From positions 1 through 58,275 of the IMG/VR virus record IMGVR_UViG_3300042328_000969: DNA of 58,275 nt. The stretch is one strand, 5' to 3'. The DNA comes from a virus. Position 1 is the first letter of the stretch. Every line of letters begins with the position of its first letter. A program made the translations under genes and the position numbers. The notes beneath the pieces were generated by a model, which saw nothing but the letters and a program-made list of their open reading frames with translations, was not told the DNA's origin and did no database searches. Positions 8,776 to 47,148 of this stretch are shown here, one piece after another.

Positions 8776-9452
8776 GCGAGTTCTTCCGAAGCAGTGGGTA
8801 CAGGGCAATTAAACTGTTCAAGTTTAAAGAGTAATTTACGATATTCAATGTTACCGATGGCGTAAAGCTCTTGGGCATTGAGTTGTGTTGCAAAATACAT
8901 CAATGCTCGCCAAACAATAATCATGTGAAAGCGCGATTGGAAAATTGGTGTATCGGTATCGTTTACTAAGGTGAAAGGGTTTTTATAATACTCACCTTCT
9001 ACCGTGTAAACATTGTCTGGTATAGGATAAAACGTAAGTGAATTATCCGCAGGTTTTATAGTAAAGTGTGTTGGGAATCCGGTTTGAATACGCGCATTCC
9101 CAAACATAAATAAATCTCTAAACTCATCCCATTCAACAGGAATGAGATATTGTTCACTGACAATACCATTCGCTGTTAAATAGATGCGCATAGTTTCGGG
9201 CGACCATTCGCTTAAATCTAGCAAACTGATACCCGTTTCAGAATAATTATTTACACCGATAATGGTATTAAATGACATATCTCCTCGTAGGAAATCCCAA
9301 TTGGCGTGTTGTAGTTGAATATCTGCGTATGCAGTATTGATGTAATCAACAGCTTGTTTGTACTCACCCTGTTGATTTGCCGTTGTGATTAATCCTGCAC
9401 CAGAAATATCTGCTTCAGATAAAAGGCGATTAGCGAGTTCAAGAAATGTCAT
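8772..9452 (-). CDS. Tail tubular protein A-like head-tail adaptor
   Basis: This 226-residue protein contains VDYINTAYADIQLQHANWDFLRG and a later YPIPD-x-x-YTVEGEYYKNP. That pattern is typical of podovirus head-to-tail adaptors (T7 gp11 class and P22 gp4-like), which join the portal to the tail nozzle. Placement directly before the nozzle-like gene supports this. The family assignment rests on pattern and context, not on an alignment. Confidence 0.65.
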   Translation of the reverse strand: MTFLELANRLLSEADISGAGLITTANQQGEYKQAVDYINTAYADIQLQHANWDFLRGDMSFNTIIGVNNYSETGISLLDLSEWSPETMRIYLTANGIVSEQYLIPVEWDEFRDLFMFGNARIQTGFPTHFTIKPADNSLTFYPIPDNVYTVEGEYYKNPFTLVNDTDTPIFQSRFHMIIVWRALMYFATQLNAQELYAIGNIEYRKLLFKLEQFNCPVPTASEELA

Positions 9453-20900: not shown

Positions 20901-23900
20901 AGGCATATCATTTTTATCTGAAAACACCATTGCGACATTGAAGCCAGTATCAAGACGTTGTACTGATTGTCGCCAGTTACTGTGTTTGTTAAAGATAGGC
21001 ACACCATTAACAATTTGGGATACCCCTGTTGAACTGTACGTTATATGTAAATTAGGTAATTTTGAATCTGAGTTTAACTTAGTGTAATCATAAAATTCCA
21101 CATTAGGATACGCTTTCATTATCGGTTCAAATACCGTTGGAGGAATATCCGAAGTCACATTCAAACGCATAGCAGGTTGATATATTTCTTTATCAATTTT
21201 TACACGGTCATTTGTTACAGGGTCGCGCAAGAATTTTTTAGGATTTACAGGATCACGGACGTATTCAAAAGTTTGATTTGCCCATGATTCATATAATTTG
21301 ATTTCATGAGCAATAGCAATTGCAAATTCCTCTGGATGAAGAACCATTGCTTCAGTTTTTAAATATTGTGATAGCCTTGCGCCACTTCTATATTTACCTT
21401 TACCGCCATATAGCAAGTTTTGCCCAGAGGTTTCCCCTAAACATAACTCCTCACAAATTGCTGACACTGGACAAGTTGAAAGGTTTCTATTGTTTATTTT
21501 TTGAGCAGACGCTAAACCTAAACCTTGAGATGCAACACTATTTCCTTCATAAGTTAAACCGTAATCACCTACGCGAGTTTTCTCTAACTTTCTATTTTCT
21601 GTTAAGAAAGTAGTTATATTGTGGTGTCTTTTTAAAACTTTTTTTGCTCTAGTGTAACGAGTTGCTTTTTGACGGTCAGTTAAAGTTTTGTATTCTTCAA
21701 TTGCTTTTGCAATACGTTCGCCAACTTCAGCCAAGGTGGTTGTTTCAGCAATACCTTGTTCCCTAGGCTGGTTTAATGTAAATAGCTTTATCATTTTTGG
21801 TTTTTTCATAAACGCTTCTCCCTCACCAATCGGAATGAAAAAGTCACGTCTACCGTCTTTATGCTCAACACTATCTTCAATTTGAACTAGCGATGGGTCA
21901 ATTTGAATTAAGACTACCGCGCCATCCATCTCATTAGTAATTGCTCCACGGTTTTCCATTACAGAATAACCGGCTGATTCATTAGTCAAATAAATTCTAT
22001 TTGCATTTGGATTATCAGCAATTAATTTTCCTTCTTGCAACACTCTACGAGCAATAGCATTTGTTGTTGGATAATACAATGATACCGTTTCATTTTTATT
22101 CATAGGAATACCTAATACACTATGAATACCCCATTTAGCTTGAGCCGCTGTTTTGATTGCAAACTTAGGTAATTCAATTGGTATTTCTAATTGACCTTCA
22201 GATAAATATGGCATAAACCCAGTTCTATCAAAATACTCTTGTGCTTGCGCTACTTCATATTCTGATGATTTTTTAAGAAGGAGTTCTGGTGCTTTACGCA
22301 ATGTCGCATTAGCAATGTAAAGCAAATCTTGGTCGCTTAGATTATTTGCCCATTGGATAAATCCTAGTTTTTGTGAAGCAGGGAACATTTTACTCATATT
22401 GCGAAGTGCATTTTTGAGCCATGCTTTGAATCTTTGAACAATTTTGAGTTTAGGCGCATATTTAATTAAATAGGCAAGTGTTTCTTCGCGCAAATCTTCT
22501 TGAGGAGTATCTGCATCCAAGGCATCTTGTCTACCTTTAACAGCCGCTGGGTTTTTAACTTTCACTAAGTTATCAGTTTCTTTTAAGAAATTTTCAAATT
22601 CAGCTTCATTACCCCCCATTTTAAGCATATGCACACTAACTTCGTGCATCATTAAATAATGTAAATCTTTTTCTTTATCAATGTTTTCCGCAACAAAATA
22701 AGTTTTACCGTCAGCAGGATTATAGAACGCTTCAATGTCACCGTTTTTACTGTAACTAACTTCCACTGCATTTTCAATAATTGCTTGAGCTTGCTCGTCG
22801 GAGATAATCTCAAACATCCCTGTGCCAAGTAACCTATCAGTCCAGCCTTTACCGTAAGCATCGTCACCGGCTTTGGTCAAACCTTCTTTTAAAGATTGCT
22901 CGGTGTGAGTATTGGTAGCAGGTTGTTGAGTTTCACTAAAACGAAAATCGCTCTTTCTCCCATAAACAGGATTCTTAGCAAGTACCAATGAGCCGATTTG
23001 AATTATTTCATCTGCATAAATAACAGGTTGACTATTTTCTCTATCGTAAAAATAAGAATGCTTTAATGGGTTCATACCTACTTGCACCCACTCTTTGCTA
23101 TTCATTGCTTCTTCAGCTTTGGCTTTTGCTTCTTCAATTGTTGTACCTTGCCATTTACCCATCATGGTAGCAATTGTACCTTTTGGAGTACCGCCTGCTA
23201 TATCCAAAGCATTTGTTTCGCCCATTCCAAAGGTGACTTCTTTAGCAATAGCAACAGATTGATAACCTGCGCTATCTCCAGCTTTAAACGAACTATCTGA
23301 AGCAGGAATAATGTTTCCGTTTTTAATACCAAGTGTTTCTTTAATATAACCTGTTATTGATTTTGGAATATGAACTGACACTACCCATGTGTTATGGTCT
23401 CTATAGGATGGGATATCGAGTCGCAATTGAATAATTTCCCCATCCTTAAATGTAAGCATTGGCAAACCGTATTTAGCGGCTTTCTTTTCTGATTGCCCTT
23501 TACCGTTTTCTAAAGCATAACGAGCTTCTTGCTCAGTAGCGATAGGCGGAAGTTCTTCATAAGGAGTCATTGGTAAAAGTTCATTTGATAATAACTCATA
23601 TTCATACGGTGTTATCAAACCTTCTTTTAACTTTTTAGCCGCTGCTTCTAATTCTGGGATACGAGCTAATACGTCTTTATGAGATAAACGTAGACGATGG
23701 TTTTCTTCTCTATCTGCTACTGTTTTGACTTTATTCTCAAGTTCATCAATGCGAGCAACAAAATCTTCTTCGCCTATATTAATTAAATTTTGGCGCATCT
23801 CGTCAGACATAGGTTTAAAATCCCATGCTCTGGCTTTGCTGAATTTTAAACTTGATGGTTTAATTAAATTAGGAATAGCCTTTGACATTTCGTATTTGAA

Positions 23901-26900
23901 GATATCAGTTCTATCGTACCCAAATCGAGGATGATCATATGTAAATTCATTAATATTTTTAGGAGAGTATTTACTGTACAGCCGAACTATGTCGTTTAGT
24001 TTTGATAAATCTCCGTAAACTTCTTTTATTTTACCGGCTATTTGTTTTAAATCGTTTTCTGAAAACCCATTATGATTTTCCCCAAACACATTTATTGACA
24101 AGGCTTTGGCAAAATCATGAAAGCTTCCCTCAAGAAGGGTATTTCCTTTTTTATCAAAAGCCACCATATTAGGGTAATTTAAAAAATTATTTGGATTGTT
24201 AAATACAAGATATTCATCTTTACTATTTTTAAAAATAGTAAAGACACCTGTATTCTTAAATTTTTCAAATCCTAAATACTTTACCAAACTATCTATTTCT
24301 TTATAAAACCTATCTTTATATGTTTTGTCGTCAGATGGGTCATTAATCTCTTCCAAAAATTCATTACGTCTATTTTCAAGACTACTTTCTTTTAATTTTG
24401 ATGTGTACTTTGCTTTGGCTTCTTTTTCTTTATATTTCTTTCTAAGGCTATCTTTTTTTTCCCAAATATCTAGGTAGTCTTCAAAGTTTGCGCCATATAT
24501 GCCCCATCCTTCAGCTACTCTTAATTCAATAGCGGCTCTATGTTCACGTTCAGCTTGTTTGGTAATTTCTTCTACATCACCTTTAGGATTACTTGCAAGT
24601 TTTTGTTTTACATATTCTTTCTTGGTGTAATCATCAATTTCTTTAACGTAATCAGATGTTTTTCTATTTTGATCTTTGAGATTATCAGTTTCCTCCCCAT
24701 ACCCTTTCTCAATAGTCACATTCGCCTGTTTAAGCGCTGCTGTGAGTGCTTTATTGTCTTGGCTACCTAACTTAATGCTTACATCTTTTCTGCCCTCTAA
24801 AAGCTCTTTATAAAGCTCTGGTGCATAGGCTTTGGCTTTGACTGGAAAAACGTGCGCATAAAGATTAAATTCAGCCACAAGTTCTTTATCACTTGCTAAA
24901 TAAGGATGATTGGCTTCCGCATCACCTAGAATTAATTCTTTAAGTGTAGCGCGTTCATCCTCAGTCAATTTGCGATAATTCAGTAGTTGATGGTGAATAG
25001 CGTGACCGAGTTCGTGTATTGTCGTGCGATCAGATTGGCTTGTTTGATAAATAGCCTGCTCATCTTGATCGTAGAATCCACCGATATTGCTATCTGTATT
25101 GATTAATGAAACCGATTCGAGATTAGGGTATTGGGTTTCATAATCAATTTCAGTTTCATCAAATTTACTTTGAGCGCCTTTATCCCCATAGAACCAATGA
25201 TTGGGATAAAGTTTTTTAAGCTCAAGTGGAGAGTTAGCAAGTTGCTCACCTTCAATTGTCACTTCACGCCCAACGGTAGCTTTGCCCTTACGTTCTGGTG
25301 CAAACAAATCACCAGAAGTTGTCATGCCTGTGCCGTTCATTTCATCCCAAAGCGTATCTCGTTCTAAATCAGCTTTACGTTCCTTTTCCGCTTTAATATC
25401 TGCAATGATTTTATCTTTTTCAGCTTGCGTCTTTGCATCTAAAATTGCGTTAACTTCTTCATTTGTATAGGTATTTAGAAGCTCGTCTTGTGCCTGTTTA
25501 TCTTGGTCGGCTTGTTCAATAGCAATTTTGTCCATTGCTTTATCAATACCCTCATAGCCGTAATACGGTTTACCAGAACGCAAACTATCTTTGAGAATAG
25601 TATCTAAATCATCGCCAGTTTTAATTTCATCAAACCCATGATCTACACGAAGCACTGTCGCCATATCATCAAAAGTGCGTCCATTTTTATTAAATAAAGC
25701 GGTGTTTCTTTTATAATCATCCAACTGGCGTTGTGACATTTCAACACGAGATAAGCCTCCCAGTTTTCCTATCATACTTACAATATTTTCAAAACCGGTT
25801 ACTTTTTTTAGATTTTCAGCAGGTTTTGTTGGTTTTCTAACCACTTGGTCTTCAGTGACAATACCGTATTTCTCCTCGCCAAGTTTTACCCAAGTGTGAG
25901 TATCCTTAGATAATTCTGGATTGGTGCGAATATGCGTTTGCGCTCCTTGCGGACTAGTAAATGCCTTACCGTTCTTTCTAAGAATAGGGTTGTTGATTGT
26001 TCCTTTGGGTTCTGCTACTGGTGTTTCTGCTACTGGTGTTGCTTCAATCTTTCTTTTTTGTACTAAGTAGCTATCATTTTGCCAAGGTACAACCCTATAT
26101 TCATTTTTAGGCTCTATCTTTTCCATAGATTTTGCCATTTGATTTGCATCACTTAGTGAATTGGTTGGGAAATGAAAAACCCATTCACCCGCAGCATACG
26201 CTTCATCTTCTTTTTTATTAGCCGATTCTCTTTCTAAGTTATTTAACTTATCTTTTACAGCAATCTCAGCTTTACGAGTTCCTTCAAAATGACGCTCATT
26301 ATCTGATGTTTCTTCAGCATAAATTGATTGTATTTCTTCTGGTGTAGATGCTTGATTAATTCGTGCAATACGATCCGAATTTCTTGTTTCATAATCTGCT
26401 GTGGGGATTAATACCTTAGATAACTCTTTTACTGTGTCTGAAGTGAGTAGACCGGTAGACTTGGCGCTATTGTAAATAGACATAGCGTCGTCTTTGCTAA
26501 TAGTATTGTTTTCAATTTCCCCAAGTGCTTTTTTAATATCGTTATTAATTACATACTTAGCAAAAATACTTGGATTATTAACTGAAAATTCATTTCGTTT
26601 ATTTTGAGCTTCCTCATAATTAACTGGCGCATTTGAAACTGGATTAGGATTAACAAATGTATTTTTCTCGATGCTTCCCCATCCGCTTTTATTTTTGCGG
26701 CTTGATTCATAAATTGGAGCAGGATACATTACATCCATAAAATCATAATGCGATAAATTTTCCGCACCATAAGACCCTTCTTCTACATACGGTATCAAGT
26801 TAATCACGTTGCCATCTTCATCTTTTTCAACAGATTTAATTGGTATTCTGTAATTGTCATAAGTAACTAATACATCACCTGCTTCCAATGAATTAAACGC

Positions 26901-28697
26901 ATCTTTAGTATTATTTACATTTATATAATCGCCTTTTGTAATATCTTTTAAACTAATTACAGTCGGTGTTTCTGCTGTTGGCATTTCTGGCGCTTGCTCA
27001 ATCGGTGTAACCAGATTAGTGTAATGATCCCTTTGCGCCTTATTGAGCGAATATTTCTCACCTGTTGGAAGATACAGCATTCCGCCTTTAAGCTCTGCGC
27101 CACCTTGCGCTACTGCTTGACCAATAAAATCTAAACTTTCCTGTGTAGCAGGTAATTTATCAGCCTTTGCTTTTATAGGCTCTTGCATTAAGGGTTCTTG
27201 CATAGCGGTAATTTGGTCTTGACCGCGTTGCGCTTCAATGGCTTGTTGCTCTTGGGTTTTCAACTCATGGGTAATGGCATGGTCAGTTGAGATAGCTTCA
27301 CCAATATGATTGAATGCTTGTAGGGCATCATCTACATTGTTTGCACCTGCAATATCTTTAGCAATTACTTCATTGCTAACTAATTGATTTTTACCAACAA
27401 TGCCACGAATACCGCCCATTGTTCTTTCCCAATCGGTCATTGGTTGAGTGGTAGCGGTTTGCTCGGTAGCGGTTTGCTCGGTAGTATCTGCTGTGGGTTC
27501 TACTGGTTTTTGTTGAGCAGATGACATTACACCACCGATGCCGCTCATCGTCCCGCCACCAATAAAGCCTAATGCTGATGCGTCGATAGCCTGTCTGAAA
27601 GATTCACTGCTAAATGGGTCTTTACCTTTACCTACTTCTTCAATAAGCGTTTGGGCAAACTCAGTTCCACCTTCAATACCTGCGCCTTTAGCACCTGTTG
27701 CAGCGCCACGAAGTAAATTACCTTTTAATCCTTCAGTGTATTTACCGGCTTCAGATAAGCGTTTACCACCAAGTACATCCAATCCAAACTTATCTGCATA
27801 AAATTCACCTGCGGCTGCAAGCGCAGTTGCACCTAAGCCTCTGCTAACTTCCCATGGTGTTAATGCGCGATTTTGCTCAGTGGATTGTTTAGCTAAATCA
27901 CCTAAAATCTCACCACCTTCTAAACCTACTGCTTGAGCGCCTAAGGTATAATCACGACCTTTTGTGCCAATTGATTCTGCAACATTCTTAACGGCTTGTC
28001 TTTCAATTTCAGATTGAGTTATATCCCTACCTGCATTTTGCTCGGCAATTTTAAGCGCTTCTTGTTCAACTAATTTTGCTGTGTATTCTTTAGCAAACAT
28101 TTCACTGGCAAGTTTAGCACCCACTTCACCTATGCCCCCTGCAAGTATGGCTTGAGTTCCTTGACCAAGCCCATACCCTATACCGTATTGCACCGTATCA
28201 GCAAGCGCACCAAAGTCACCTTCTTTTGCTTTCTGATAAGCATAAGTAAACGAATCACTTTCTTTTGCATTGGCTTGAGTTTCTTTTTGCGCGGCAATCA
28301 TTTTACCAACAGCTTCCTGCTTATCTTGCGTAAGCATTCCACCTTCACCAAATGCAGTTTCACCAATGGCGTATGCGCCTGCTTCTAATCCATAGCCTAA
28401 TTCTGGCAATTGCTCATAAGATGTTTTAAAGCCTCGTGAGAAGTCGCTATTATCCTTTGGGTTAGCCTCCGCTTGCATTTGTGCAATCTGCTCTGACGTT
28501 GGTTGCTCAACTGGCTTATTGAATTGCGTTAAATCACCACTAGGCTCAGTAAGAGTTGGACGATTAACAGTATCTTCTTCCAATGAAGGCAAATAGCGAT
28601 TATTAAAATAATCCATTACCTCTGTTTCTGACATTGCATCTGGTAAATCTAGTTGATATGTCGCGCCTGCTTTTGTGGTGATTTCGTAATTAGCCAT
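17961..28697 (-). CDS. Giant polyvalent internal virion protein (3,578 aa)
   Basis: This one gene fills 18% of the window. The N-terminal region (about residues 100-400) is Gly/Ala-rich and may cross membranes. A zincin motif HELGHAIHH lies near residue 1227 and a second HEVSVHML near 2016. Around 1886-1912 is HSYFYD followed by VIYADEIIQIGSLVLAKNPVYG, a recurrent module of phage polyvalent proteins. About 2187-2265 is a possible ADP-ribosyltransferase-like segment. About 2400-2660 resembles the gp88 family (STCPVSAICEELCLGE). About 3140-3385 matches the LPD38-type C-terminal domain (MGIPFITWTIKSFESTLRTL). It is encoded with the transglycosylase, so it is probably ejected with DNA to deliver several activities. 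No RNA polymerase motif is seen. Confidence 0.8.
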   Translation of the reverse strand: MANYEITTKAGATYQLDLPDAMSETEVMDYFNNRYLPSLEEDTVNRPTLTEPSGDLTQFNKPVEQPTSEQIAQMQAEANPKDNSDFSRGFKTSYEQLPELGYGLEAGAYAIGETAFGEGGMLTQDKQEAVGKMIAAQKETQANAKESDSFTYAYQKAKEGDFGALADTVQYGIGYGLGQGTQAILAGGIGEVGAKLASEMFAKEYTAKLVEQEALKIAEQNAGRDITQSEIERQAVKNVAESIGTKGRDYTLGAQAVGLEGGEILGDLAKQSTEQNRALTPWEVSRGLGATALAAAGEFYADKFGLDVLGGKRLSEAGKYTEGLKGNLLRGAATGAKGAGIEGGTEFAQTLIEEVGKGKDPFSSESFRQAIDASALGFIGGGTMSGIGGVMSSAQQKPVEPTADTTEQTATEQTATTQPMTDWERTMGGIRGIVGKNQLVSNEVIAKDIAGANNVDDALQAFNHIGEAISTDHAITHELKTQEQQAIEAQRGQDQITAMQEPLMQEPIKAKADKLPATQESLDFIGQAVAQGGAELKGGMLYLPTGEKYSLNKAQRDHYTNLVTPIEQAPEMPTAETPTVISLKDITKGDYINVNNTKDAFNSLEAGDVLVTYDNYRIPIKSVEKDEDGNVINLIPYVEEGSYGAENLSHYDFMDVMYPAPIYESSRKNKSGWGSIEKNTFVNPNPVSNAPVNYEEAQNKRNEFSVNNPSIFAKYVINNDIKKALGEIENNTISKDDAMSIYNSAKSTGLLTSDTVKELSKVLIPTADYETRNSDRIARINQASTPEEIQSIYAEETSDNERHFEGTRKAEIAVKDKLNNLERESANKKEDEAYAAGEWVFHFPTNSLSDANQMAKSMEKIEPKNEYRVVPWQNDSYLVQKRKIEATPVAETPVAEPKGTINNPILRKNGKAFTSPQGAQTHIRTNPELSKDTHTWVKLGEEKYGIVTEDQVVRKPTKPAENLKKVTGFENIVSMIGKLGGLSRVEMSQRQLDDYKRNTALFNKNGRTFDDMATVLRVDHGFDEIKTGDDLDTILKDSLRSGKPYYGYEGIDKAMDKIAIEQADQDKQAQDELLNTYTNEEVNAILDAKTQAEKDKIIADIKAEKERKADLERDTLWDEMNGTGMTTSGDLFAPERKGKATVGREVTIEGEQLANSPLELKKLYPNHWFYGDKGAQSKFDETEIDYETQYPNLESVSLINTDSNIGGFYDQDEQAIYQTSQSDRTTIHELGHAIHHQLLNYRKLTEDERATLKELILGDAEANHPYLASDKELVAEFNLYAHVFPVKAKAYAPELYKELLEGRKDVSIKLGSQDNKALTAALKQANVTIEKGYGEETDNLKDQNRKTSDYVKEIDDYTKKEYVKQKLASNPKGDVEEITKQAEREHRAAIELRVAEGWGIYGANFEDYLDIWEKKDSLRKKYKEKEAKAKYTSKLKESSLENRRNEFLEEINDPSDDKTYKDRFYKEIDSLVKYLGFEKFKNTGVFTIFKNSKDEYLVFNNPNNFLNYPNMVAFDKKGNTLLEGSFHDFAKALSINVFGENHNGFSENDLKQIAGKIKEVYGDLSKLNDIVRLYSKYSPKNINEFTYDHPRFGYDRTDIFKYEMSKAIPNLIKPSSLKFSKARAWDFKPMSDEMRQNLINIGEEDFVARIDELENKVKTVADREENHRLRLSHKDVLARIPELEAAAKKLKEGLITPYEYELLSNELLPMTPYEELPPIATEQEARYALENGKGQSEKKAAKYGLPMLTFKDGEIIQLRLDIPSYRDHNTWVVSVHIPKSITGYIKETLGIKNGNIIPASDSSFKAGDSAGYQSVAIAKEVTFGMGETNALDIAGGTPKGTIATMMGKWQGTTIEEAKAKAEEAMNSKEWVQVGMNPLKHSYFYDRENSQPVIYADEIIQIGSLVLAKNPVYGRKSDFRFSETQQPATNTHTEQSLKEGLTKAGDDAYGKGWTDRLLGTGMFEIISDEQAQAIIENAVEVSYSKNGDIEAFYNPADGKTYFVAENIDKEKDLHYLMMHEVSVHMLKMGGNEAEFENFLKETDNLVKVKNPAAVKGRQDALDADTPQEDLREETLAYLIKYAPKLKIVQRFKAWLKNALRNMSKMFPASQKLGFIQWANNLSDQDLLYIANATLRKAPELLLKKSSEYEVAQAQEYFDRTGFMPYLSEGQLEIPIELPKFAIKTAAQAKWGIHSVLGIPMNKNETVSLYYPTTNAIARRVLQEGKLIADNPNANRIYLTNESAGYSVMENRGAITNEMDGAVVLIQIDPSLVQIEDSVEHKDGRRDFFIPIGEGEAFMKKPKMIKLFTLNQPREQGIAETTTLAEVGERIAKAIEEYKTLTDRQKATRYTRAKKVLKRHHNITTFLTENRKLEKTRVGDYGLTYEGNSVASQGLGLASAQKINNRNLSTCPVSAICEELCLGETSGQNLLYGGKGKYRSGARLSQYLKTEAMVLHPEEFAIAIAHEIKLYESWANQTFEYVRDPVNPKKFLRDPVTNDRVKIDKEIYQPAMRLNVTSDIPPTVFEPIMKAYPNVEFYDYTKLNSDSKLPNLHITYSSTGVSQIVNGVPIFNKHSNWRQSVQRLDTGFNVAMVFSDKNDMPKTVTDEATGKVYQVWNGDNYDARFLDPKRADGIGMIIGLTNKDNTGGTEDATERTKGFFVNYNKARDGDNVTILDQSKFDARAETYKGEKATSSIKFSKSKKQSTEDTAKEGEIVNRSTGYTAYENAKPIPEEVDNKDNYPDDVSLEEEKDWVTQQLRRFDSFRRLNDKSNELIDKYLTTMGYLPELGKYLGMRYKTLGKIDNVDDIVRNVFDTLQNATKEDSKEIYTYLTDNKATTDFIMDRQMAQVAKDLKEAIQIIGKKLVEFNIIPIESYQMYEGRYLPRVYLEHIIQSSDRYQSLGSGKTLSSMGYAKKRDNNLPEEVRRLLKGEVKNPAYLASRTISIPLRDIAMMEFFNQISDNEKWVWKQSLINIELDATTNRPTAIFDEDGVINYKATNSALEGAPKKTVVRKVTPYFLDKEADRILDQSYSAPEEDRKDMQDLAQMMKRAASQALQNMDAIPSDFIKMPNVAKYGSLRGLVVHKLIYDDLVGTINTYGATGEQTALENFFGNNGLLARITSAFKFSHVAVNIPTQVTNLLSNGILLHTSGVRFDKVPVRVIQAFKEVLNNGENYQKMVDMGGRKATFSNQELKGITDWLLENEAEFSDKDMDWFSMTHLFRELSYLTGKTVRSANNLHQNIEMIFKVAKFIDMKAKGATDGTAAVMAHRALFDYSFIPRWAKWLRTVPMGIPFITWTIKSFESTLRTLANRPTALLPYYMLGYALSLAAAADFGDDGEDKLKAILKLLPERMQRGGSVWILPMKDDAGRTQLIDMKNLFPWGKTAEGVEALSKLVGNQDVAELRTLADAIGVFSSPITQAVVAIDTNRDTFTGKQIIDENDTSAQKLQTILEYTYGMMMPPMLGSKGDIATIIKSQSPSSYEGIMNKDGSPKKTEEQAFIHLFTGLSIKSVDVDFERHKKIEAFNNMITGIKAQRTKELRANPNLGEEERGIVREKYDARIERVKEKKQKFKDETDVLK

Positions 28698-33437: not shown

Positions 33438-34043
33438 ATGAGCTTTAAATTACACATGACGATGGGAACTGCAAAAATGCAGGATATCCCTTCTTTCAAC
33501 ACTCCTGCCTCTAGCAATCCTTTCTGCATCAAAATGAATGGATCAGCAGACAAAACAGTGGTATGTACTAGATGTTATTCGATTACTACAGAAAAGCGTT
33601 ATCCGACGTTAGTAAAAGCATTAGAACGCAATGCCGATCTGTACAAAAGAATTTTGCTCGATACCGAGTTACCGCGTTTAAATTTTGCTATTGCTCGTTT
33701 TGACAGTTTTGGCGAAGTACATAATGAAATTCATGTACTTAACTATTTTAATCTTGCGCGTAAAAACCCCGAAACCGTTTTTGGGTTCTGGACTAAGCGC
33801 AAAGATTTAATAAAAGTAGTGCTATCAATGGTTAGCAAACCGGCTAACGTCGTTTTGATTCATAGCAGCACAAAGATGAACAAAATCGACAAACTACCTG
33901 CCGGTTACGACAAAGTATTCACGGCACATAAAAAATCAGAGTTAAGCGCTAACGTCGATATCAATTGCAGTCAAAAATGCAATGATTGCAGATTGTGCTA
34001 TAGCCACAACGACACAATTTTTATTAACGAAATTGCTAAATAA
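33438..34043 (+). CDS. gp88-like protein with Cys cluster
   Basis: The 201-residue protein resembles the mycobacteriophage gp88 family by its layout. There is a Cys pair early (TVVCTRCYS), then LARKNPETVFGFWTKRKDL in the middle, and a C-terminal Cys group CSQKCNDCRLC resembling an iron-sulfur or zinc site. A related domain is embedded in the giant virion protein near residues 2400-2660. The biochemical activity is unknown to me. It is translated from an ACCGGAGAA site after the leader hairpin element. Confidence 0.6.
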   Translation: MSFKLHMTMGTAKMQDIPSFNTPASSNPFCIKMNGSADKTVVCTRCYSITTEKRYPTLVKALERNADLYKRILLDTELPRLNFAIARFDSFGEVHNEIHVLNYFNLARKNPETVFGFWTKRKDLIKVVLSMVSKPANVVLIHSSTKMNKIDKLPAGYDKVFTAHKKSELSANVDINCSQKCNDCRLCYSHNDTIFINEIAK

Positions 34044-35360: not shown

Positions 35361-35522
35361 ATGATGATGACATATAAAGAGTACATTCAATCACTACCGA
35401 GTGATTATCTTCAGATGCTTTACGATGAAGACGTTCACTTGTTCCAAGCATACAAAGAATATGTTACCGCATGGAAATCACTCGAAGCAGAGTACGGGGA
35501 GATTAAAAATGCTGTTCACTAA
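35361..35522 (+). CDS. 53-residue early protein, unknown
   Basis: The ATG at 35361 follows ACTGGAGAATA. The product (MMMTYKEYIQSLPSDYLQMLYDEDVHLF) is acidic and helical, and its end overlaps the next gene by 14 bases. No family is recognised. Confidence 0.45.
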   Translation: MMMTYKEYIQSLPSDYLQMLYDEDVHLFQAYKEYVTAWKSLEAEYGEIKNAVH

Positions 35523-35916
35523 AAAGGCAATGAAAGTAAAAGTACCCAAGGCGCTAAAAGTTTCACGCGGTAGACCTAAGATTGATCCGCGCAAAAAATC
35601 AAGACATTATCAATTATCAATACAGGGAGATTTGATTGATTTTCTTGAAAGCGCTGGACTCAAATCAAAATCGGCTTTTGTGAGTTTAGCAATTCGCACA
35701 ATGATGGAGTTCAAAAAATACCGTTCACTGCCTTATGATAAATGCCTTGATTGTGGGTGCGATATGACAGCGCCACTTAACCCCATGGATGGTGCAAAAA
35801 CATACGTTGATGAGGATGGTAAAGTTTTGGATGTTTTTGTTCAATGCGAAGGTTGCGGTGGTCGTGCTGGACATAGGCAATATGATCCACGAAACCATGG
35901 ACTAGAATCAGAATAA
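35509..35916 (+). CDS. Basic zinc-ribbon protein
   Basis: The protein has 135 residues from the ATG at 35509 (GGGGAG ribosome site). The N-terminus is Lys/Arg-rich, followed by QLSIQGDLIDFLESAGLKSKSAFVSLAI, which could be a ribbon-helix-helix-like unit. The C-terminus carries two Cys pairs (CLDCGCD and CEGCGG) expected to bind zinc. It may be a small DNA-binding regulator. It is the last gene before the terminator and origin-like region. Confidence 0.5.
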   Translation: MLFTKKAMKVKVPKALKVSRGRPKIDPRKKSRHYQLSIQGDLIDFLESAGLKSKSAFVSLAIRTMMEFKKYRSLPYDKCLDCGCDMTAPLNPMDGAKTYVDEDGKVLDVFVQCEGCGGRAGHRQYDPRNHGLESE

Positions 35917-35922
35917 AATATT

Positions 35923-35946
35923 AGCCGGTTAATTACCGGCTTTTTT
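35923..35946 (+). terminator. Intrinsic terminator
   Basis: GCCGGT (35924-35929) pairs with ACCGGC (35935-35940) over a 5-nt loop, followed by T6. It ends the first early transcription unit. Confidence 0.85.
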
Positions 35947-35947
35947 G

Positions 35948-36207
35948 TCTGCGACAAAGCGACACAGTGGACATAGTTTTTTCTATTTATATATTTTTTA
36001 TAAATCAATTCATTTTACCTATATTTTTATTAAATATTTCTCATAACCATTATTACTAAAACTATGTCTACTATGTCGCAGAGAGTATAGGAATATAGAG
36101 TTTATAAGGGTTTGAAGGTGCGACATAGTAATTTTTAAACTCTGTCGCAAATACATAGTTACTTTGTCGCAAAGAAAATTTAGCATTTTTTCTCTGCGAC
36201 ACAGTTT
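35948..36207. other. Iteron-like cluster with AT-rich core; candidate replication origin
   Basis: The word TGCGACA-N-AG(T) and close variants recur about nine times on both strands: 35948, 35959, 35969, 36059(-), 36070(-), 36118, 36137(-), 36161(-) and 36190. Between the clusters lies a very AT-rich tract (35977-36058). The region has no gene, is bordered by converging transcription, and lies directly downstream of the primase-helicase gene. Iterons plus an AT-rich stretch next to a replication gene are typical of origins. Confidence 0.6.
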
Positions 36208-36212
36208 AAATT

Positions 36213-38729
36213 TTAAATTCCGTAATGATCCTTAACTTTCTTGATAACTTCATTCTCGTCTAACGTGCTTCTACGCCAAATCGTGTGTTTTTTCCGCCCT
36301 CCATCGCTTGTCGGTACATCGATTCTCTTGTGAACTTTCTCGTAGCCAATTTGTAAAAGTATTCGAGTCAATGCCGACGTTTTCGGGAGCTTTAAAACTG
36401 AAGGTTCAAACTCCTCAAAATTAAGTTTACCGAGTAGCGTAATATCGACTATGTTTTCGTTAATAACCTCACAGTGGTAATGTGCGATCAAATCTTTCAC
36501 TTCTTCAAATTCATGTGACACAGAATAGCCTATCATCTTTTCACGCGACAAGGTTTTAGGCGCTCGACCTTTCGCTGAAAAGTCTGGACTTATCACCCGA
36601 TTCATAAAGTAATGGCAAAGTGCATCCATCCGTCGATCAGTTTCTAAAAACAGTTTCTCAAAATACCGGTTAGTTTCCTGCTCACCACCAAGCAGTGCAA
36701 ACAAATGTTCCTCCGACTGACAGCGACTATACATAACGCAGTAACGACGATCCCCATTGGTAATCGGCAGCGCATCTTGGTAATTAGTCAAAAGAAAATA
36801 CGACGTGAAATTCGGAACAGTCCGAGAGTTAGAAAACTTTTCTTCAATCTGTATCGTTTCGTTTGTAATATATGGCTTCATCGTATCGATAATCGACCAG
36901 CGGTTATCGCCCGATAGCCGAATCTCCTCGACAATATTCAACACCGACCCATACGCCCAACCGCTAAACGTTCCTTTCGTGAATTGCTTCGGATCGAGTT
37001 GCGTGGCATTACTCCCAAGTATCCCCTGCAATATCTTTGTAAAGTATGTTTTACCGCCACCTTGAGTCCCCTGCAAAAGGACTGCCCAGTTCACTTTACT
37101 GCCAATGTTTTGCACAACGTGACACATCCAGTCCAGCAATATCACCCGCTCTTTTGGCTCAACCAGCGTAAATTCCAAGTGCTTGAGCATCATATCCACA
37201 ACACGCAACCCATCGTCGTCCATCACTTCACATGGCAACACACCGCGTTTCTTATACGAGTTTACATATCGCAGTCCATCGTTATCATTAACGAAAATTC
37301 CATCGTTCTTACTCGCCCAATACATGGTATCGATGACTGTATCCATTTTCCAATCAACCAGCGCCATCGACGATGCTGATCTTTCCGCTGCGACGCACTC
37401 ATCCATGCGATCAAACTCCGCGTTGAACGCTTCGCGCTTGATAGAGTAGCCGTGCTTTAAGTTATGAAACTCCATTGGGCGCTGCACATAAACCCAGTTA
37501 CGCAACCAAGACGGCATCTCCTCAACAACCAAGCCACCTTTCTTTGGTGGGCAAAGCTCACGAACAATAGCCGACTTCGTCATCCCCTCACCTTTACCCC
37601 ACCGGTCATAAATGTCCTGTGCGATTTGCTGACGCTTGGTAAGTGTCACCGCGCTGAGTGGTAATTTACGCAACTTATTGCGCACATCCTCATATGCCCT
37701 GTCATTATCAACCGACAGACCTTCCGACCCAGTGACAAAGATTTCTTTCACCTGCTTCTCGACAATCTCCCCAACACTTACTCCGCTGTCCTTGACCATC
37801 TTAATCACTGTGGCAAACGTCAACGGGCGCACTTTCTTTTCCGTCTTGAATGATTGCCATTTCTTATCAATATCTGCCGCGTTGAACTTATCCGAGTTAG
37901 CAGACCAGTGAAGCCAAAGAAGTTTACCCTCATCCGATCCTCTATATTGATGATGCAATGCCTGCCCGACGGTAATCCACGTCGAGTAATCACCTGCCGA
38001 TTCAACCAGTGCATCGAGATTAGCTTCGACCAGCGCATCGCTGACATCAATTGGCTCATGCGCGAGTGCAAGCGATAGTCCCTGCATATCGTCTGCGTCA
38101 TCATCCGTATCATCTACATCGAATTCAACTGTCAAGTATTCCTTGACAGTTCCCTGCACCAGCTTTTCAACAGGAAAGGCAAGCGCTACCTCTACATCAA
38201 CCTCACTGCCTTCCATCACCATCACAAAAGACGACTCAATCGACTCAGCACTAACACTCGGCATATACATAAACTGAGCAGGCTTAAATGCACTGTCATC
38301 AATAATAAAACTGCTAAACTCCGACGCGAACCAGCGCATCACGGCAACGTATTCCTCCGCGCTGACCTCCCGTGACAATGGCAACACTATACGAAAGCGA
38401 TTAGCGTCATCTGTACTACGCCATGTTGAGTACGCAACCAGCGCAAAGCCTGTCATCTCCAGCTCAAACTCAATCTCTCCTTTAGTCATTGCGCATTCAT
38501 CAACGTCAATGGTCAAAAGCGAACGCCCAAGCAGGTTCTCCGTGTTGCGATGACCACCACTGAACCCACCGCCACAGAACCAGCCTTCCTGCTCTTTGGT
38601 CTTTGCAACTTTGTGCTTACCAAGTACCGTGCAAATTCGCTCCCAACTCACTTCTACATTGCGACAGACAGCACTGTTCTTATCCCCGCGACTTATGCGG
38701 TACGTTTTAGTAGACTCCACCATAAACAA
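36213..38729 (-). CDS. Primase-helicase (DUF5906/D5-like SF3 helicase)
   Basis: This 838-residue replication protein has an N-terminal primase-like region with acidic catalytic candidates (LLTIDVDECAMTKGE, then RFRIVLPLSR). Residues about 240-300 are a PriCT-type domain (YSTWITVGQALHHQYRG). Residues about 560-700 form the helicase with Walker A GTQGGGKTYF, Walker B-like VLNIVEEIRLS and a following FLLTNYQDALPI. The C-terminus is a winged-helix-like tail. It transcribes against the neighbouring early genes, and its base composition is visibly more GC-rich than theirs. It is expected to prime and unwind phage DNA at the adjacent origin-like region. Confidence 0.85.
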   Translation of the reverse strand: MFMVESTKTYRISRGDKNSAVCRNVEVSWERICTVLGKHKVAKTKEQEGWFCGGGFSGGHRNTENLLGRSLLTIDVDECAMTKGEIEFELEMTGFALVAYSTWRSTDDANRFRIVLPLSREVSAEEYVAVMRWFASEFSSFIIDDSAFKPAQFMYMPSVSAESIESSFVMVMEGSEVDVEVALAFPVEKLVQGTVKEYLTVEFDVDDTDDDADDMQGLSLALAHEPIDVSDALVEANLDALVESAGDYSTWITVGQALHHQYRGSDEGKLLWLHWSANSDKFNAADIDKKWQSFKTEKKVRPLTFATVIKMVKDSGVSVGEIVEKQVKEIFVTGSEGLSVDNDRAYEDVRNKLRKLPLSAVTLTKRQQIAQDIYDRWGKGEGMTKSAIVRELCPPKKGGLVVEEMPSWLRNWVYVQRPMEFHNLKHGYSIKREAFNAEFDRMDECVAAERSASSMALVDWKMDTVIDTMYWASKNDGIFVNDNDGLRYVNSYKKRGVLPCEVMDDDGLRVVDMMLKHLEFTLVEPKERVILLDWMCHVVQNIGSKVNWAVLLQGTQGGGKTYFTKILQGILGSNATQLDPKQFTKGTFSGWAYGSVLNIVEEIRLSGDNRWSIIDTMKPYITNETIQIEEKFSNSRTVPNFTSYFLLTNYQDALPITNGDRRYCVMYSRCQSEEHLFALLGGEQETNRYFEKLFLETDRRMDALCHYFMNRVISPDFSAKGRAPKTLSREKMIGYSVSHEFEEVKDLIAHYHCEVINENIVDITLLGKLNFEEFEPSVLKLPKTSALTRILLQIGYEKVHKRIDVPTSDGGRKKHTIWRRSTLDENEVIKKVKDHYGI

Positions 38730-38735
38730 TCCTCG

Positions 38736-38954
38736 TTATCTTTTAATTATTGGTAAATCAACCGCCTTAATTGCCCCATCGGTTAATTGCTCAACCTGTA
38801 TCGCCCTGTTTGCCGGTATCTTTCCTTCAGTTACCCAATACGACACCGCTGCTTTAGTCACACCCAACTTCTTTGCTAACACAACCTGCTCACCACCAAA
38901 CCACTGCACCACATCATCAACGGTCACACCGTCATAAAATTCTTCATTTTCCAT
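38736..38954 (-). CDS. YdaS/Cro-like helix-turn-helix repressor
   Basis: The protein has 72 residues from the ATG at 38954, supported by AAAGAG at suitable spacing; a longer frame upstream has poor composition. The helix-turn-helix reads VVQWFGGEQVVLAKKLGVTKAAVSYWVTEGKIPANRAIQVEQLTDG, which is the YdaS/Cro pattern. It is divergent from the early operon starting at 39019, so it likely represses one or both promoters in the 64-base gap. Confidence 0.75.
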   Translation of the reverse strand: MENEEFYDGVTVDDVVQWFGGEQVVLAKKLGVTKAAVSYWVTEGKIPANRAIQVEQLTDGAIKAVDLPIIKR

Positions 38955-38970
38955 TTGCATCTCTTTGTGA

Positions 38971-38988
38971 GTTAAGTTAAGATTGACT
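38971..38988 (+). promoter_or_regulatory. GTTAAGTT operator-like element, copy 1
   Basis: GTTAAGTTAAGATTGACT lies in the divergent gap beside the Cro-like gene. The same 18 bases with one change (AAGG for AAGA) recur at 47149-47166, and GTTAAGTT occurs on both strands at 41310-41341. I infer an operator or promoter element for the adjacent repressor. Confidence 0.5.
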
Positions 38989-39018
38989 CTCATTTTACAA
39001 CAACAGAGGAAAAACACA

Positions 39019-39693
39019 ATGAATGATTTAACAATACTCACAAACACTCAACTTGGTGAATTCATTTCACTCTCATTAATACATGGCACAAACACCCAGT
39101 TTAGCTATGAGTTATTGCATGAAGTGGCAGAGCGCTTAGTGCAAACGGATGAAATTATCAAATCTGGAATCAGTCACGGCATTCACGAAACGCTAACTAA
39201 GCAATCAACTGCATTCAAATTCAGACTTGAGGATGTTGTCAAAACGCTTGATGAAACGTTAGCGCCTGCAATTATTGAGGATAATAAAGAAACTGTTGAA
39301 AGCATCACTGATATTGAGCATCACGAAGCAATGAACAAAGCGATGAAAGTGGATAGGGATGAAGGCAGAGCAGGATCATCTAGCGCTAAGAAAACAGTTA
39401 TTGAACAATTAGCCGATCAAATAAAACCTAAAGCAGTAAAGAAAAAAGAAAAGCCTGTAGAAGTAGAAGTGGAAGAACTCGCTGAAGAACCTGTTGAAGA
39501 AGTAAAAGAACCCGAACTTCTCATAACATCTAAACTATTAAAAGAAATAGCGCTTGAACTGCGTCAACGTAAAGCCATTTCAAAAGAGCAAATTGTGGAT
39601 AAGTTAACTGAACTAGGTGCGTCTAGCACAATGACTCTTGCGCCTAAACACTATGTTGAATTTTATAACTTCTTGGAGAGCTTCAATGTCTAA
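39019..39693 (+). CDS. Early protein with acidic linker, unknown
   Basis: The protein has 224 residues from the ATG at 39019 (AGAGGA ribosome site). Residues 1-110 are helical. Residues about 125-175 are a Glu/Lys/Val-rich linker (KKEKPVEVEVEELAEEPVEEVKE). The C-terminal 50 residues (ISKEQIVDKLTELGASSTMTLAPKHYVEFYNFLESF) form a small conserved-looking domain. It is the first gene of the main replication operon, followed closely by the DUF1566-like and DUF2800 genes. The function is unknown. Confidence 0.5.
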   Translation: MNDLTILTNTQLGEFISLSLIHGTNTQFSYELLHEVAERLVQTDEIIKSGISHGIHETLTKQSTAFKFRLEDVVKTLDETLAPAIIEDNKETVESITDIEHHEAMNKAMKVDRDEGRAGSSSAKKTVIEQLADQIKPKAVKKKEKPVEVEVEELAEEPVEEVKEPELLITSKLLKEIALELRQRKAISKEQIVDKLTELGASSTMTLAPKHYVEFYNFLESFNV

Positions 39694-40150
39694 TTTAGTA
39701 TTGACTGTAACTGAAAGATATGAACTTTTGGATGTTATATGTGAGATTCGCCCTATTCTCGAATCAGTGACGCATGAGGAAACTAAACGTAAATTATATG
39801 AATTGCAAGGTATGTTGCGATCAAAGGTTGCGTGTTCAGTAGACACTGAAAAGTATGTAAAAGATTTAGATTTTTATATTGGCGAAGAATATTGTGGCGA
39901 TTGGCATGCCGCTATGATAAACGAAGAAGATGGATGGGAAATTCCGACTATTGATGATTTAATAAAAATAAGTGAATGTATTGATAATCCACTTATGTAC
40001 ACGGCTGATGAACTTTACTGGTCAAATGAATCTCATTGTAAAACAAAGGCAACCTGCTACTTTTTTTATAATGATGACATTGTAACTGTATCTAAAAAAC
40101 ACGCTCATTATTATTTTTATATTTCGCGCAAAGGTGAGAAAAATGACTAA
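39686..40150 (+). CDS. DUF1566-like small protein
   Basis: The protein has 154 residues from the ATG at 39686 with TTGGAGAG upstream. The C-terminal part (GWEIPTIDDLIKISECI, then YWSNESHCK and ISRKGEK) resembles the Lcl/DUF1566 fold, seen in diverse phage and bacterial proteins and related to the formylglycine-enzyme/C-type lectin fold. The N-terminus is helical. The role is unknown. It overlaps both neighbours and so is coupled in translation. Confidence 0.45.
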   Translation: MSNLVLTVTERYELLDVICEIRPILESVTHEETKRKLYELQGMLRSKVACSVDTEKYVKDLDFYIGEEYCGDWHAAMINEEDGWEIPTIDDLIKISECIDNPLMYTADELYWSNESHCKTKATCYFFYNDDIVTVSKKHAHYYFYISRKGEKND

Positions 40151-44687: not shown

Positions 44688-44987
44688 ATGCTTGAAAAAG
44701 AAATTGAAAAATACCTGTGCGATCAAATTAAAAAAGTAGGTGGAACGTGTGAAAAATTTACATCGCCCAATCGTCGCTCAGTCCCAGATCGTTTAATTAC
44801 TTTACCATTTCAGCCGATATTTTTTGTTGAATGCAAAGCGCCTAAAAAGAAACCCACTGAAGCACAAGAACGCGATCATCAAAGACGACGCGAGATGGGC
44901 GTCCATGTCTATGTCATTGACTCAAAAGAAAGCGTTGATACTTTATTGCTTTATCGATTACCAGTGGAAGGCGATTATGCGCACTAG
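44688..44987 (+). CDS. VRR-NUC nuclease
   Basis: This 99-residue PD-(D/E)XK nuclease is of the VRR-NUC type: KEIEKYLCDQIKKVGG, then VPDRLITLP with the catalytic Asp, FFVECKAPKKKPTEAQERDH with E-x-K, and a C-terminal VYVIDS. Phage members are stand-alone and usually precede an SNF2-type helicase, as here; the two genes overlap by 11 bases. It likely acts on branched or replication DNA together with that helicase. Confidence 0.9.
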   Translation: MLEKEIEKYLCDQIKKVGGTCEKFTSPNRRSVPDRLITLPFQPIFFVECKAPKKKPTEAQERDHQRRREMGVHVYVIDSKESVDTLLLYRLPVEGDYAH

Positions 44988-47148
44988 AGCAGAACTCCGT
45001 CATTACCAAGTCAGAACCTCCTCGTTTCAAATTGAACAAGAGCGAACACTTTGTGCGCTTAAAATGGGGATGGGGAAAACAGCTTCTACGCTCACTACAA
45101 TCCACGATTTAATTGATGCTTGTGTGATTACCAAAGCACTTGTTATCGCGCCACTGAGAGTAGCTAATAGCGTCTGGGCGCAAGAAGCAAAGGAATGGGA
45201 ACATCTCAAAGATTTAAAATTCAAAATATGTACAGGCACAGAGCAAAAGCGCCTAGCCGCCTTGCACCATGATGCGGATGTTTATGTTATTAATCGAGAA
45301 AACGTGGTCTGGTTAGTGAATCACTATAGGGATAAGTTCCCCTTTCAAATGGTGGTGGTAGATGAGTGTTTTCCAGAGGGTACAATGATATTGACCCCTA
45401 CAGGACTTCGTGATATAAAAACTCTTGAAATTGGAGAATCTGTAATAACTTCAATTGGAGAAAAACCTATTACTAATATCTTTAAAAAAGAATCTTATGA
45501 CCTTATCAAATTATATTTATCAGACGGAACAAGTATTGAATGTACAGGAAATCATCCTTTTGCAACAGAAAAGGGGTGGATTCAAGCACGGGGATGTCGG
45601 GGTTTGCATTTTGTGCGGAACAATCTATATGAAACGCAAATTAACTCATCAGTTATGCAGCCGGTCTTGTTCAAAAAAACATATGCACAATATCAGAACA
45701 GAAGAACACAAAAAAGAAGTCATAGAAAAAACTTCAAAAACAGCAAAAAAGAATTACGCATCTGGACAAAGAACCACTTGGAACAAAGGGTTAGAATGGT
45801 CAGACGAAGTAAAACAAAAATTAAGTTTAGCTCACAAACTTTCTGGGCATCAACCAATTGTGCGCGGAGGGAATGGGAAAATTTCAGAATGCGAGAAGAT
45901 GATGAGGGAAATCTTACCGTCAGAATGGATAATGCAGTGTGCAATACCCACAAAAATGGGAAGAACCAGTGGCTATCCAACTTGCTACAAAGTAGATTTC
46001 GGAATTCCGCAAAAGAAAATTGCGTTAGAAGTAGATGGAAACTCTCACAGATCGCGAAAGCGGTTGGACGAAAAGAAAGATACCTTTCTTCAATCGTTAG
46101 GGTGGACAGTATTGAGAATATCCAACAATCGCGCTCAAGAAATGTATTCAATTTACAAATTAACGGGATCAATGATTATTTTGCCAACGGAATTTTAGTA
46201 CACAATTGCTCCAGCTTTAAAAGTGATAAAAGTAAACGTGTCAAAGCACTGCGCAAAGCATTACCTTATGTTCACTACATCACTCTACTGACAGGTACAC
46301 CCTCACCCAATGGCTTACTCGACCTGTGGTCACAATGCTATTTAGTAGATAACGGAAAAGCGCTTGGGCGAACCATGACTATGTATAAAAGCCGATTCTT
46401 TGAACAGGATTATAGCGGTTACAAATACACCCCTCGCAAAGATTCACAAAAGAAAATTGAAGCATTGATAGCGCCATTTACCATATCAATGGAAACAAGT
46501 GATTACCTTGATATGCCAGACTACATTGAATTATATGAAGAAATTCAATTAGAACCTGCGGTAATATCTAAATACAAGCAGTTTGAAAAAACACTATATC
46601 TTGATTTTGAAAATAGCGAAGTTGAAGCATTAAGCGCAGCGACACTTGCCAATAAGTTATTGCAGTATTGCGCTGGTGCTGTGTACGTCGATGAGTTTAA
46701 AAACTATGAAATAGTCCATGATGCAAAACTTGATGCGCTTGCAGACATTATTGAGCAGAACGATGGGGAGAATATCCTTGTTGCCTATAACTTCAAAAGC
46801 GATCTTGAGCGACTACTTAAACGCTTTCCAGACGGGCGAGTTCTCGATAAGCATCAAAGCACTATTGATGAATGGAACAATGGCGAAATACCCCTTCTAT
46901 TTGCGCATCCTCAATCAGCCGGTCACGGTCTTAATATCCAACACGGTGGTAGCATGATTGTGTGGTTTTCACTGAGCTGGAGTTTGGAGTATTACCAGCA
47001 GTTTAATGCTCGATTGTACCGGCAAGGACAGACTATGGCGGTAAGGATTATCCACTTAATCTGCAAAGGCTGCATTGACGAGCGAATCATTAACGTATTG
47101 AAAGATAAAGATATTGTGCAATCTGACTTACTTCGTGCATTAAAATAA
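44977..47148 (+). CDS. SNF2-family helicase interrupted by an intein in motif II
   Basis: The full reading frame from the ATG at 44977 (GGAAGG ribosome site) has 723 residues, and the spliced protein would have 443. Walker A is MGMGKT (residues about 29-34). Motif II reads VVVDE, is interrupted by the intein, and continues CSSFKS. Motif III is TLLTGTPSPNGLLDLW. The C-terminal RecA lobe has LVAYNFKSDLERLL and FSLSWSLEYYQQFNARLYRQGQ (motifs V-VI). It is a phage double-strand DNA translocase or helicase, usually paired with VRR-NUC. Activity should require splicing because the intein splits the ATPase site. Confidence 0.9.
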   Translation: MRTRAELRHYQVRTSSFQIEQERTLCALKMGMGKTASTLTTIHDLIDACVITKALVIAPLRVANSVWAQEAKEWEHLKDLKFKICTGTEQKRLAALHHDADVYVINRENVVWLVNHYRDKFPFQMVVVDECFPEGTMILTPTGLRDIKTLEIGESVITSIGEKPITNIFKKESYDLIKLYLSDGTSIECTGNHPFATEKGWIQARGCRGLHFVRNNLYETQINSSVMQPVLFKKTYAQYQNRRTQKRSHRKNFKNSKKELRIWTKNHLEQRVRMVRRSKTKIKFSSQTFWASTNCARREWENFRMREDDEGNLTVRMDNAVCNTHKNGKNQWLSNLLQSRFRNSAKENCVRSRWKLSQIAKAVGRKERYLSSIVRVDSIENIQQSRSRNVFNLQINGINDYFANGILVHNCSSFKSDKSKRVKALRKALPYVHYITLLTGTPSPNGLLDLWSQCYLVDNGKALGRTMTMYKSRFFEQDYSGYKYTPRKDSQKKIEALIAPFTISMETSDYLDMPDYIELYEEIQLEPAVISKYKQFEKTLYLDFENSEVEALSAATLANKLLQYCAGAVYVDEFKNYEIVHDAKLDALADIIEQNDGENILVAYNFKSDLERLLKRFPDGRVLDKHQSTIDEWNNGEIPLLFAHPQSAGHGLNIQHGGSMIVWFSLSWSLEYYQQFNARLYRQGQTMAVRIIHLICKGCIDERIINVLKDKDIVQSDLLRALK
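45367..46206 (+). other. Intein (280 residues) in helicase motif II
   Basis: It starts at Cys in CFPEGTMILTPTG (block A). Block B is GTSIECTGNHPFAT with the T-x-x-H motif. The C-terminal blocks are RNVFNLQINGINDYFANGILVHN, ending His-Asn before the extein Cys at 46207. All splicing residues (Cys1, block B His, His-Asn, Cys+1) are present. The middle, from about 45590 to 46100, is a Lys/Arg/Asn/Ser-rich stretch with no intein or endonuclease motif in this frame, although it is free of stops. The endonuclease is in another frame. Confidence 0.88.
45455..46198 (+). CDS. Homing endonuclease nested in the intein, alternative (+1) frame
   Basis: In the frame one base ahead of the helicase, a continuous frame of up to 247 codons holds recognisable endonuclease parts. 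These are a zinc-finger-like CILCGTIYMKRKLTHQLCSRSC (45605-45670), a NUMOD3-like TTWNKGLEWSDEVKQKLSLAH, and a Vsr/DUF559-like PD-(D/E)XK core ALEVDGNSHRSRKRLDEKKD followed by FLQSLGWTVLRISN. The initiation codon is unclear: TTG at 45455 opens the frame, and no strong ribosome site precedes the Cys finger, so frameshifting or an internal non-ATG start is possible. The C-terminus overlaps the Hint block VDSIEN in the other frame. It would spread the intein by cutting intein-free alleles. Confidence 0.75.
   Translation: MEKNLLLISLKKNLMTLSNYIYQTEQVLNVQEIILLQQKRGGFKHGDVGVCILCGTIYMKRKLTHQLCSRSCSKKHMHNIRTEEHKKEVIEKTSKTAKKNYASGQRTTWNKGLEWSDEVKQKLSLAHKLSGHQPIVRGGNGKISECEKMMREILPSEWIMQCAIPTKMGRTSGYPTCYKVDFGIPQKKIALEVDGNSHRSRKRLDEKKDTFLQSLGWTVLRISNNRAQEMYSIYKLTGSMIILPTEF

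Follow-up and report, generated by a model that had tools for sequence, protein, structure and literature searches.

Repeats beside a phage primase-helicase gene, a probable replication origin exchanged together with the C-terminal end of the enzyme

Introduction

The replication origin of Streptococcus phage Sfi21 reportedly lies in noncoding DNA downstream of the primase. In the SaPI/PICI satellites, the rep gene is followed directly on its 3′ side by an AT-rich stretch with one set of iterons on each flank, the initiator is a helicase that is sometimes fused to a primase (rep or pri-rep), and the rep-ori segment drives plasmid replication (PMC6092414). The isolated C-terminal domain of Cch2 from SCCmec binds direct repeats that lie shortly downstream of the Cch2 gene; there are only three 5-nt repeats, priming is left to a separate complex, and the element is a chromosomal cassette and not a phage (PMC7581432). 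A third type is found in pRN1 and phage BIP-1, where primase, SF3 helicase, and winged helix form one protein and inverted, sequence-variable arms surround a loop 3′ of the gene; this origin is described as a stem-loop without iterons (in pRN1 about 100 bp, on the 3′ side of a gene whose primase-helicase product ends in a winged helix) (PMC4234260). Finally, in the satellite PLE the iteron-binding domain of RepA and the origin are exchanged jointly. The nuclease Odn may select for this exchange, a change of iterons being an escape route (PMC8263062).

Here we describe an array of repeats in the virus record IMGVR_UViG_3300042328_000969, all 58,275 bases of which were analysed (hereafter, the window). 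The array resembles the SaPI/PICI origins in that two repeat sets flank an AT-rich stretch directly 3′ of the gene for a helicase that is the putative initiator, and this position is kept in relatives. It differs from them by a third set of mixed orientation and by its genetic background: SaPI/PICI are satellites that use a helper's capsid, whereas the window carries terminase, portal, and major head protein genes of a full-size phage. As in pRN1 and BIP-1, primase, SF3 helicase, and winged helix are joined in one protein and inverted arms surround a loop 3′ of its gene; unlike there, nine copies of one word are present, several of them outside the main arms. The joint exchange of a putative repeat-binding domain and a probable origin recalls PLE, in which, however, the RepA binding domain is N-terminal and the iterons are longer and semi-palindromic.

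The repeats very probably mark the place where copying of the phage DNA starts. We found no earlier description of an origin of this kind in full-size Casjensviridae-like phages in the literature searched, nor a relevant paper on the origin of BcepNazgul or the Casjensviridae. The concerted change of the repeat word, the protein segment that varies along with this word, the exchange of both as a cassette, and their spread through the family are new here. The finding would place an origin in a widespread phage group for which no mapped origin was found, and would extend to full-size phages an origin layout said to be confined to phage satellites.

Results

Anatomy of the repeat array

The first-pass annotation had reported at least nine repeats on both strands around an AT-rich tract of about 80 bases, and both statements hold: we mapped nine copies of an 11-bp word, consensus TGCGACATAGT, at 35950-36205 on both strands, and the tract between them measures 83 bp. 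The genes on either side converge and stop there, also as described, with the + strand reading frame ending at 35916 and the primase-helicase stop codon at 36213-36215, seven bases beyond the end of the last word at 36205. The features of the region are as follows.

35509..35916, + strand: small gene for a zinc-ribbon protein, converging; constant across the change of word
35923..35946, + strand: intrinsic terminator that closes the small converging gene; the exchanged cassette has its distal border here
35950..36440: exchanged cassette, about 490 bp, holding the last ~75 codons of the primase-helicase gene, the repeats, and the AT-rich tract; proximal border approximate
35950..35977, + strand: distal tandem set of three words in 8-9 bp steps, pointing into the AT-rich tract
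35950-35960, + strand: distal set word TGCGACAAAGC
35958-35968, + strand: distal set word AGCGACACAGT
35967-35977, + strand: distal set word GTGGACATAGT
35978..36060: AT-rich tract, 83 bp, 12% GC; putative melting site
36061..36080, - strand: proximal tandem pair TGCGACATAGT and AGACATAGT in a 9 bp step (36070, 36061), pointing into the AT-rich tract
36119..36129, + strand: mixed-orientation set word TGCGACATAGT
36139..36149, - strand: mixed-orientation set word TGCGACAGAGT
36161..36171, - strand: mixed-orientation set word TGCGACAAAGT
36195..36205, + strand: mixed-orientation set word TGCGACACAGT
36213..38729, - strand: primase-helicase, 838 aa, putative initiator, with PriCT-2, an SF3/D5-type helicase core (DUF5906), and a C-terminal winged helix
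36216..36515, - strand: predicted winged-helix domain, residues 739-838, of which 778-838 vary with the repeat word
38736..39047, - strand: Cro-like HTH gene upstream of the primase-helicase; constant across the change of word, a companion also in Casjensviridae

Seven of the nine words contain GCGACANAG, which starts at 35951, 35959, 36120, and 36196 on the + strand and at 36071, 36140, and 36162 (low coordinate) on the - strand; the other two are shortened to GACATAGT, with GACATAG starting at 35970 (+) and 36062 (-). The proximal pair is inverted relative to the distal set, forming 22-nt arms that are 91% complementary and separated by 77 nt. Within the AT-rich tract, ATATATAAATAG is kept in relatives. 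The third set, four words of mixed orientation at 36119-36205, lies between the proximal pair and the primase-helicase gene.

The first-pass annotation had also stated that nothing similar occurs elsewhere and had proposed a count of the motif over the genome. This count bears the statement out for the full word, as TGCGACANAG has no copy outside the array in the 58,275-base record, and qualifies it for shorter forms: GCGACANAG occurs twice more, singly, at 29383 and 55600, and two other places in the record, at about 1.6 and 57.9 kb, score as high as the region by the crude measure of exact 8-mers. The top 8-mer of the 260-bp region has 4 copies, against a maximum of 3 in first-order Markov shuffles (n=2000). 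Because of this tie, it is the degenerate 11-bp word, together with its conservation, that carries the argument. The exact word TGCGACANAGT occurs in the related records G001, G002, G003, and G005 (up to 57.8 kb) only as a single cluster or a single copy, beside the same gene.

A DNA similarity search against known phages gave no match at the repeats, no DnaA box was found with up to 1 mismatch, and no RNA families or tRNAs were found; there is one weak IHF-like match. GC skew, another of the proposed checks, and third-position skew are dominated by the genes and speak neither for nor against an origin at this position. Of the coding bases, 82% point away from the array, which suits departing forks but also ordinary phage gene order.

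The primase-helicase and its C-terminal domain

The adjoining gene encodes primase and helicase motifs in one chain, as in AEP-SF3/D5 proteins. Invariant residues include D75/D77, the putative primase active site, and G554-G559-K560, E601, and N649. The helicase core matches the NrS-1 PrimPol, and among solved structures the nearest is that of the polymerase C-terminal region of the deep-sea phage NrS-1. In an AlphaFold2 model, residues 739-836 have the order of elements H-E-H-H-E-E-E-H, which is that of a winged helix. Structural matches of this domain were weak (best Z 5.7), the better ones being mostly winged-helix proteins, and Foldseek alone returned no match at E ≤ 0.001.

The repeat word changes in concert among close relatives

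Our close set comprised 42 loci in viral contigs and 2 in genome bins, with primase-helicases 67-99% identical; widening it with an alignment query gave no new loci. The species genome collection yielded no relatives beyond the two binned loci, L097 and L098, whose bins carry the labels Methylomonas and Methylococcaceae. This hints at methanotroph hosts, with the reservation that binning of phage contigs is unreliable.

Across about 40 related contigs, wherever the downstream DNA is present, the positions of the repeats are conserved and the word is altered in nearly all copies at once. The word classes are as follows.

TGCGACATAGT: class of the window
TGAGACACCT / TGAGACAGGT: L030/L031/L034
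TGAGACATAGT: L037, L098
TGAGACAGGT: L038, L097, L040
GTAGACATAGT: L039

This pattern bears on whether the DNA structure or the word itself is what matters. If the origin were structural, as in pRN1, its function would depend on one large cruciform or stem-loop, with the repeats serving only as the arms; the region would still be an origin. The tandem sets do form inverted arms around the AT-rich tract, the fold of the strand is much more stable than that of shuffled sequences (z -6.0), and the pRN1 stem-loop occupies the same place beside a comparable enzyme. However, the word is repeated outside the arms as well, and separate stems share one word and all switch to the same new word in relatives. 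Pairing needs matching partners and not agreement among all stems, which a common reader does need. We therefore regard a purely structural origin as improbable and favour a protein that reads the word.

As to the identity of the reader, the primase-helicases of the TGCGACATAGT class and of L030/L031/L034 are 97-98% identical at residues 1-770 and 66% identical at 771-838. All 20 fixed differences between the TGCGACATAGT and TGAGACACCT classes fall within residues 778-838, inside the predicted winged-helix domain (binomial P ~1e-22 under uniform placement, a descriptive figure only, as the sites are linked). The zinc-ribbon and Cro proteins were also considered as readers and were rejected, since both stay constant (99% and 97-100% identical, respectively) while the word changes; a role of the zinc-ribbon protein at 35509 as reader, raised in the first-pass annotation, is thus unlikely. 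Taken together, the confinement of the differences to 778-838 and the constancy of the other two proteins point to the winged helix as the probable reader of the word, and away from those two.

The same constancy weighs on the idea that a phage transcription regulator, either the Cro-like or the zinc-ribbon protein, uses the repeats as its operators and that they are not an origin. A Cro-like gene does lie upstream of the primase-helicase, repeats on both strands would suit a regulator, and a weak promoter-like match (10 of 12) overlaps the AT-rich tract. Nevertheless, the repeats sit between two converging gene ends and behind a terminator, no copy was found near the cro promoter, the region has fewer promoter-like matches than shuffled sequence, and neither candidate regulator follows the word. 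Operators are therefore a very unlikely explanation.

A sub-class within the close set (L010, at 8514-8800, L020, L042, and L033) has two facing words that now read TGCTACATAGT, most others keeping TGCGACA; residue 837 is the only residue fixed against the main class. This sub-class is possibly an intermediate of word change.

Gene end and repeats are exchanged as a cassette

Between the class of the window and L030/L031/L034, DNA identity is 86-98% in the flanks and falls to ~55-85%, mostly below 70%, over ~35950-36440. A second clade shows the same division. L037/L039 and L037/L038 have cores 94-96% alike, C-termini 83% alike, and different words, and for L037 vs L039 dS is 1.4 at residues 778-838 vs 0.43 in the core. 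Conversely, L037/L098 and L038/L097 share a word within each pair and have nearly identical cassettes (dS 0.14-0.29), and the dS of their cores (0.5 and 0.7) exceeds that of the cassettes. In two diverged clades, and in both directions, the exchanged stretch thus has similar borders, one near the winged helix and one where the repeats end. Judging from these alignments, the gene end and the repeats recombine as a unit.

It could be argued that this is neutral mosaicism, in which a divergent tract replaced the gene end and the intergenic region with no functional link between them. Such a reading concerns the reader and not the origin. The tract is continuous and the neighbourhood is mosaic elsewhere too, as neutral exchange would have it; on the other side stand the recurrence of similar borders and the fact that every word copy changes while copy number and place persist. 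We consider neutral exchange unlikely. The evidence for contact between the winged helix and the word is strong but indirect, since the two are adjacent and one recombination tract, by linkage alone, can carry both without mutual contact.

Because the putative reader domain and the iterons are adjacent and co-exchanged, a phage could switch the address of its origin in one recombination step, and natural pairs show how such a swap could occur in a single event. Two pairs, the window vs L034 and L037 vs L039, differ almost only in winged helix and word, which makes the protein-DNA recognition code directly testable. In exchanging a repeat "address" jointly with the enzyme end that seems to read it, close relatives have in effect run a natural experiment on the marks by which a virus singles out its own DNA for replication.

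The layout is shared by a wider family and by Casjensviridae

In a wide survey of 77 loci, drawn from the best 80 loci and not a census, the 450 nt that follow the stop codon contained significant 8-mer repeats in 47, mostly of a word of the lineage's own, in 39 the repeat window 3′ of the primase-helicase was the top window of the locus, and about one third of the distant relatives had no array at this place. Five further loci, including Chi-like Utah, carry an array a few hundred bases further on, which in Utah sits behind an inserted HTH gene. Over the whole family, partial correlations of word similarity with core and winged helix are 0.21 and 0.12, so that the word tracks the core as well as the winged helix; it is the close comparisons only that single out the winged helix.

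In the window, a cro-primase replication block diverges from ssb and a DUF2800 exonuclease, as in Casjensviridae. BcepNazgul, AH2, phiAxp-2, SS2019XI, and Chi-like Utah have the same cro-primase block with lineage-specific repeats on both strands 3′ of the primase, although their primases are only 26-31% identical to that of the window and the words differ: AGGTCCGAAT in Nazgul and AH2, AACCTGCAA in phiAxp-2, and TGTCCCGGA in SS2019XI. Vibrio phage 1.017 has GTATCCGAA in this place. By its replication block, the one part compared, the virus of the window appears to be a Casjensviridae-like tailed phage of ~58 kb.

One further reading takes the repeats for packaging sites (cosB-like) read by terminase, and the DNA that follows the primase on its 3′ side does extend to the annotated cohesive end in both BcepNazgul and Utah. 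The words, however, change with the C-terminus of the primase-helicase, the large terminase gene of the window is 19 kb off, and the repeats stay with the primase family-wide, which leaves a packaging role hardly credible.

Within the surveyed family, L145 and L146 have cores that are 97% identical; 3′ of the primase, L146 has eight intact GGTCGCAA words and L145 mostly decayed ones. This suggests either an origin that is losing its repeats or an origin in transition.

Discussion

Proposed function of the array

We propose, with a rough probability of 0.85, that 35950-36205 is the replication origin and is bound by the C-terminal winged helix of the phage's own self-loading primase-helicase. 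The first-pass annotation had suggested a phage origin used with the primase-helicase, and this suggestion gains support from the family-wide layout and from the covariation of the word with the C-terminus of the enzyme. By analogy with the SaPI/PICI and Cch2 systems (PMC6092414, PMC7581432), primase-helicase monomers would use the winged helix to bind the 11-bp iterons, and the facing tandem sets would position two helicase rings across the AT-rich tract. The tract may then melt and the SF3-type rings load and unwind outward, giving a bidirectional start, with the fused primase domain priming both strands for the phage's own DNA polymerase. The mixed-orientation set may be auxiliary or regulatory.

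Why origin types stay diverse is a more tentative matter. Conflict could maintain them, if phages that exchange reader domain and iterons for a rare address evade rival initiators, nucleases that cut origins, satellites, or decoy origins; we regard this as possible but doubtful. If it were true, origin types would act like incompatibility groups.

Other features of the window

Next to the primase block, the small genes at 38983-40150 form a strong mosaic even between relatives that are nearly identical elsewhere. A SNF2-type helicase at 44824-47148 (+) contains an intein at about residues 182-461 (CFPEGT...VHN/C), which sits directly after the DE of the DExx (Walker B) motif. On the - strand, 17961-28697 is one open reading frame of 3578 aa whose sole Pfam match is GP88, at residues 2368-2631, and a second, free-standing protein of the GP88 family is encoded at 33438-34043.
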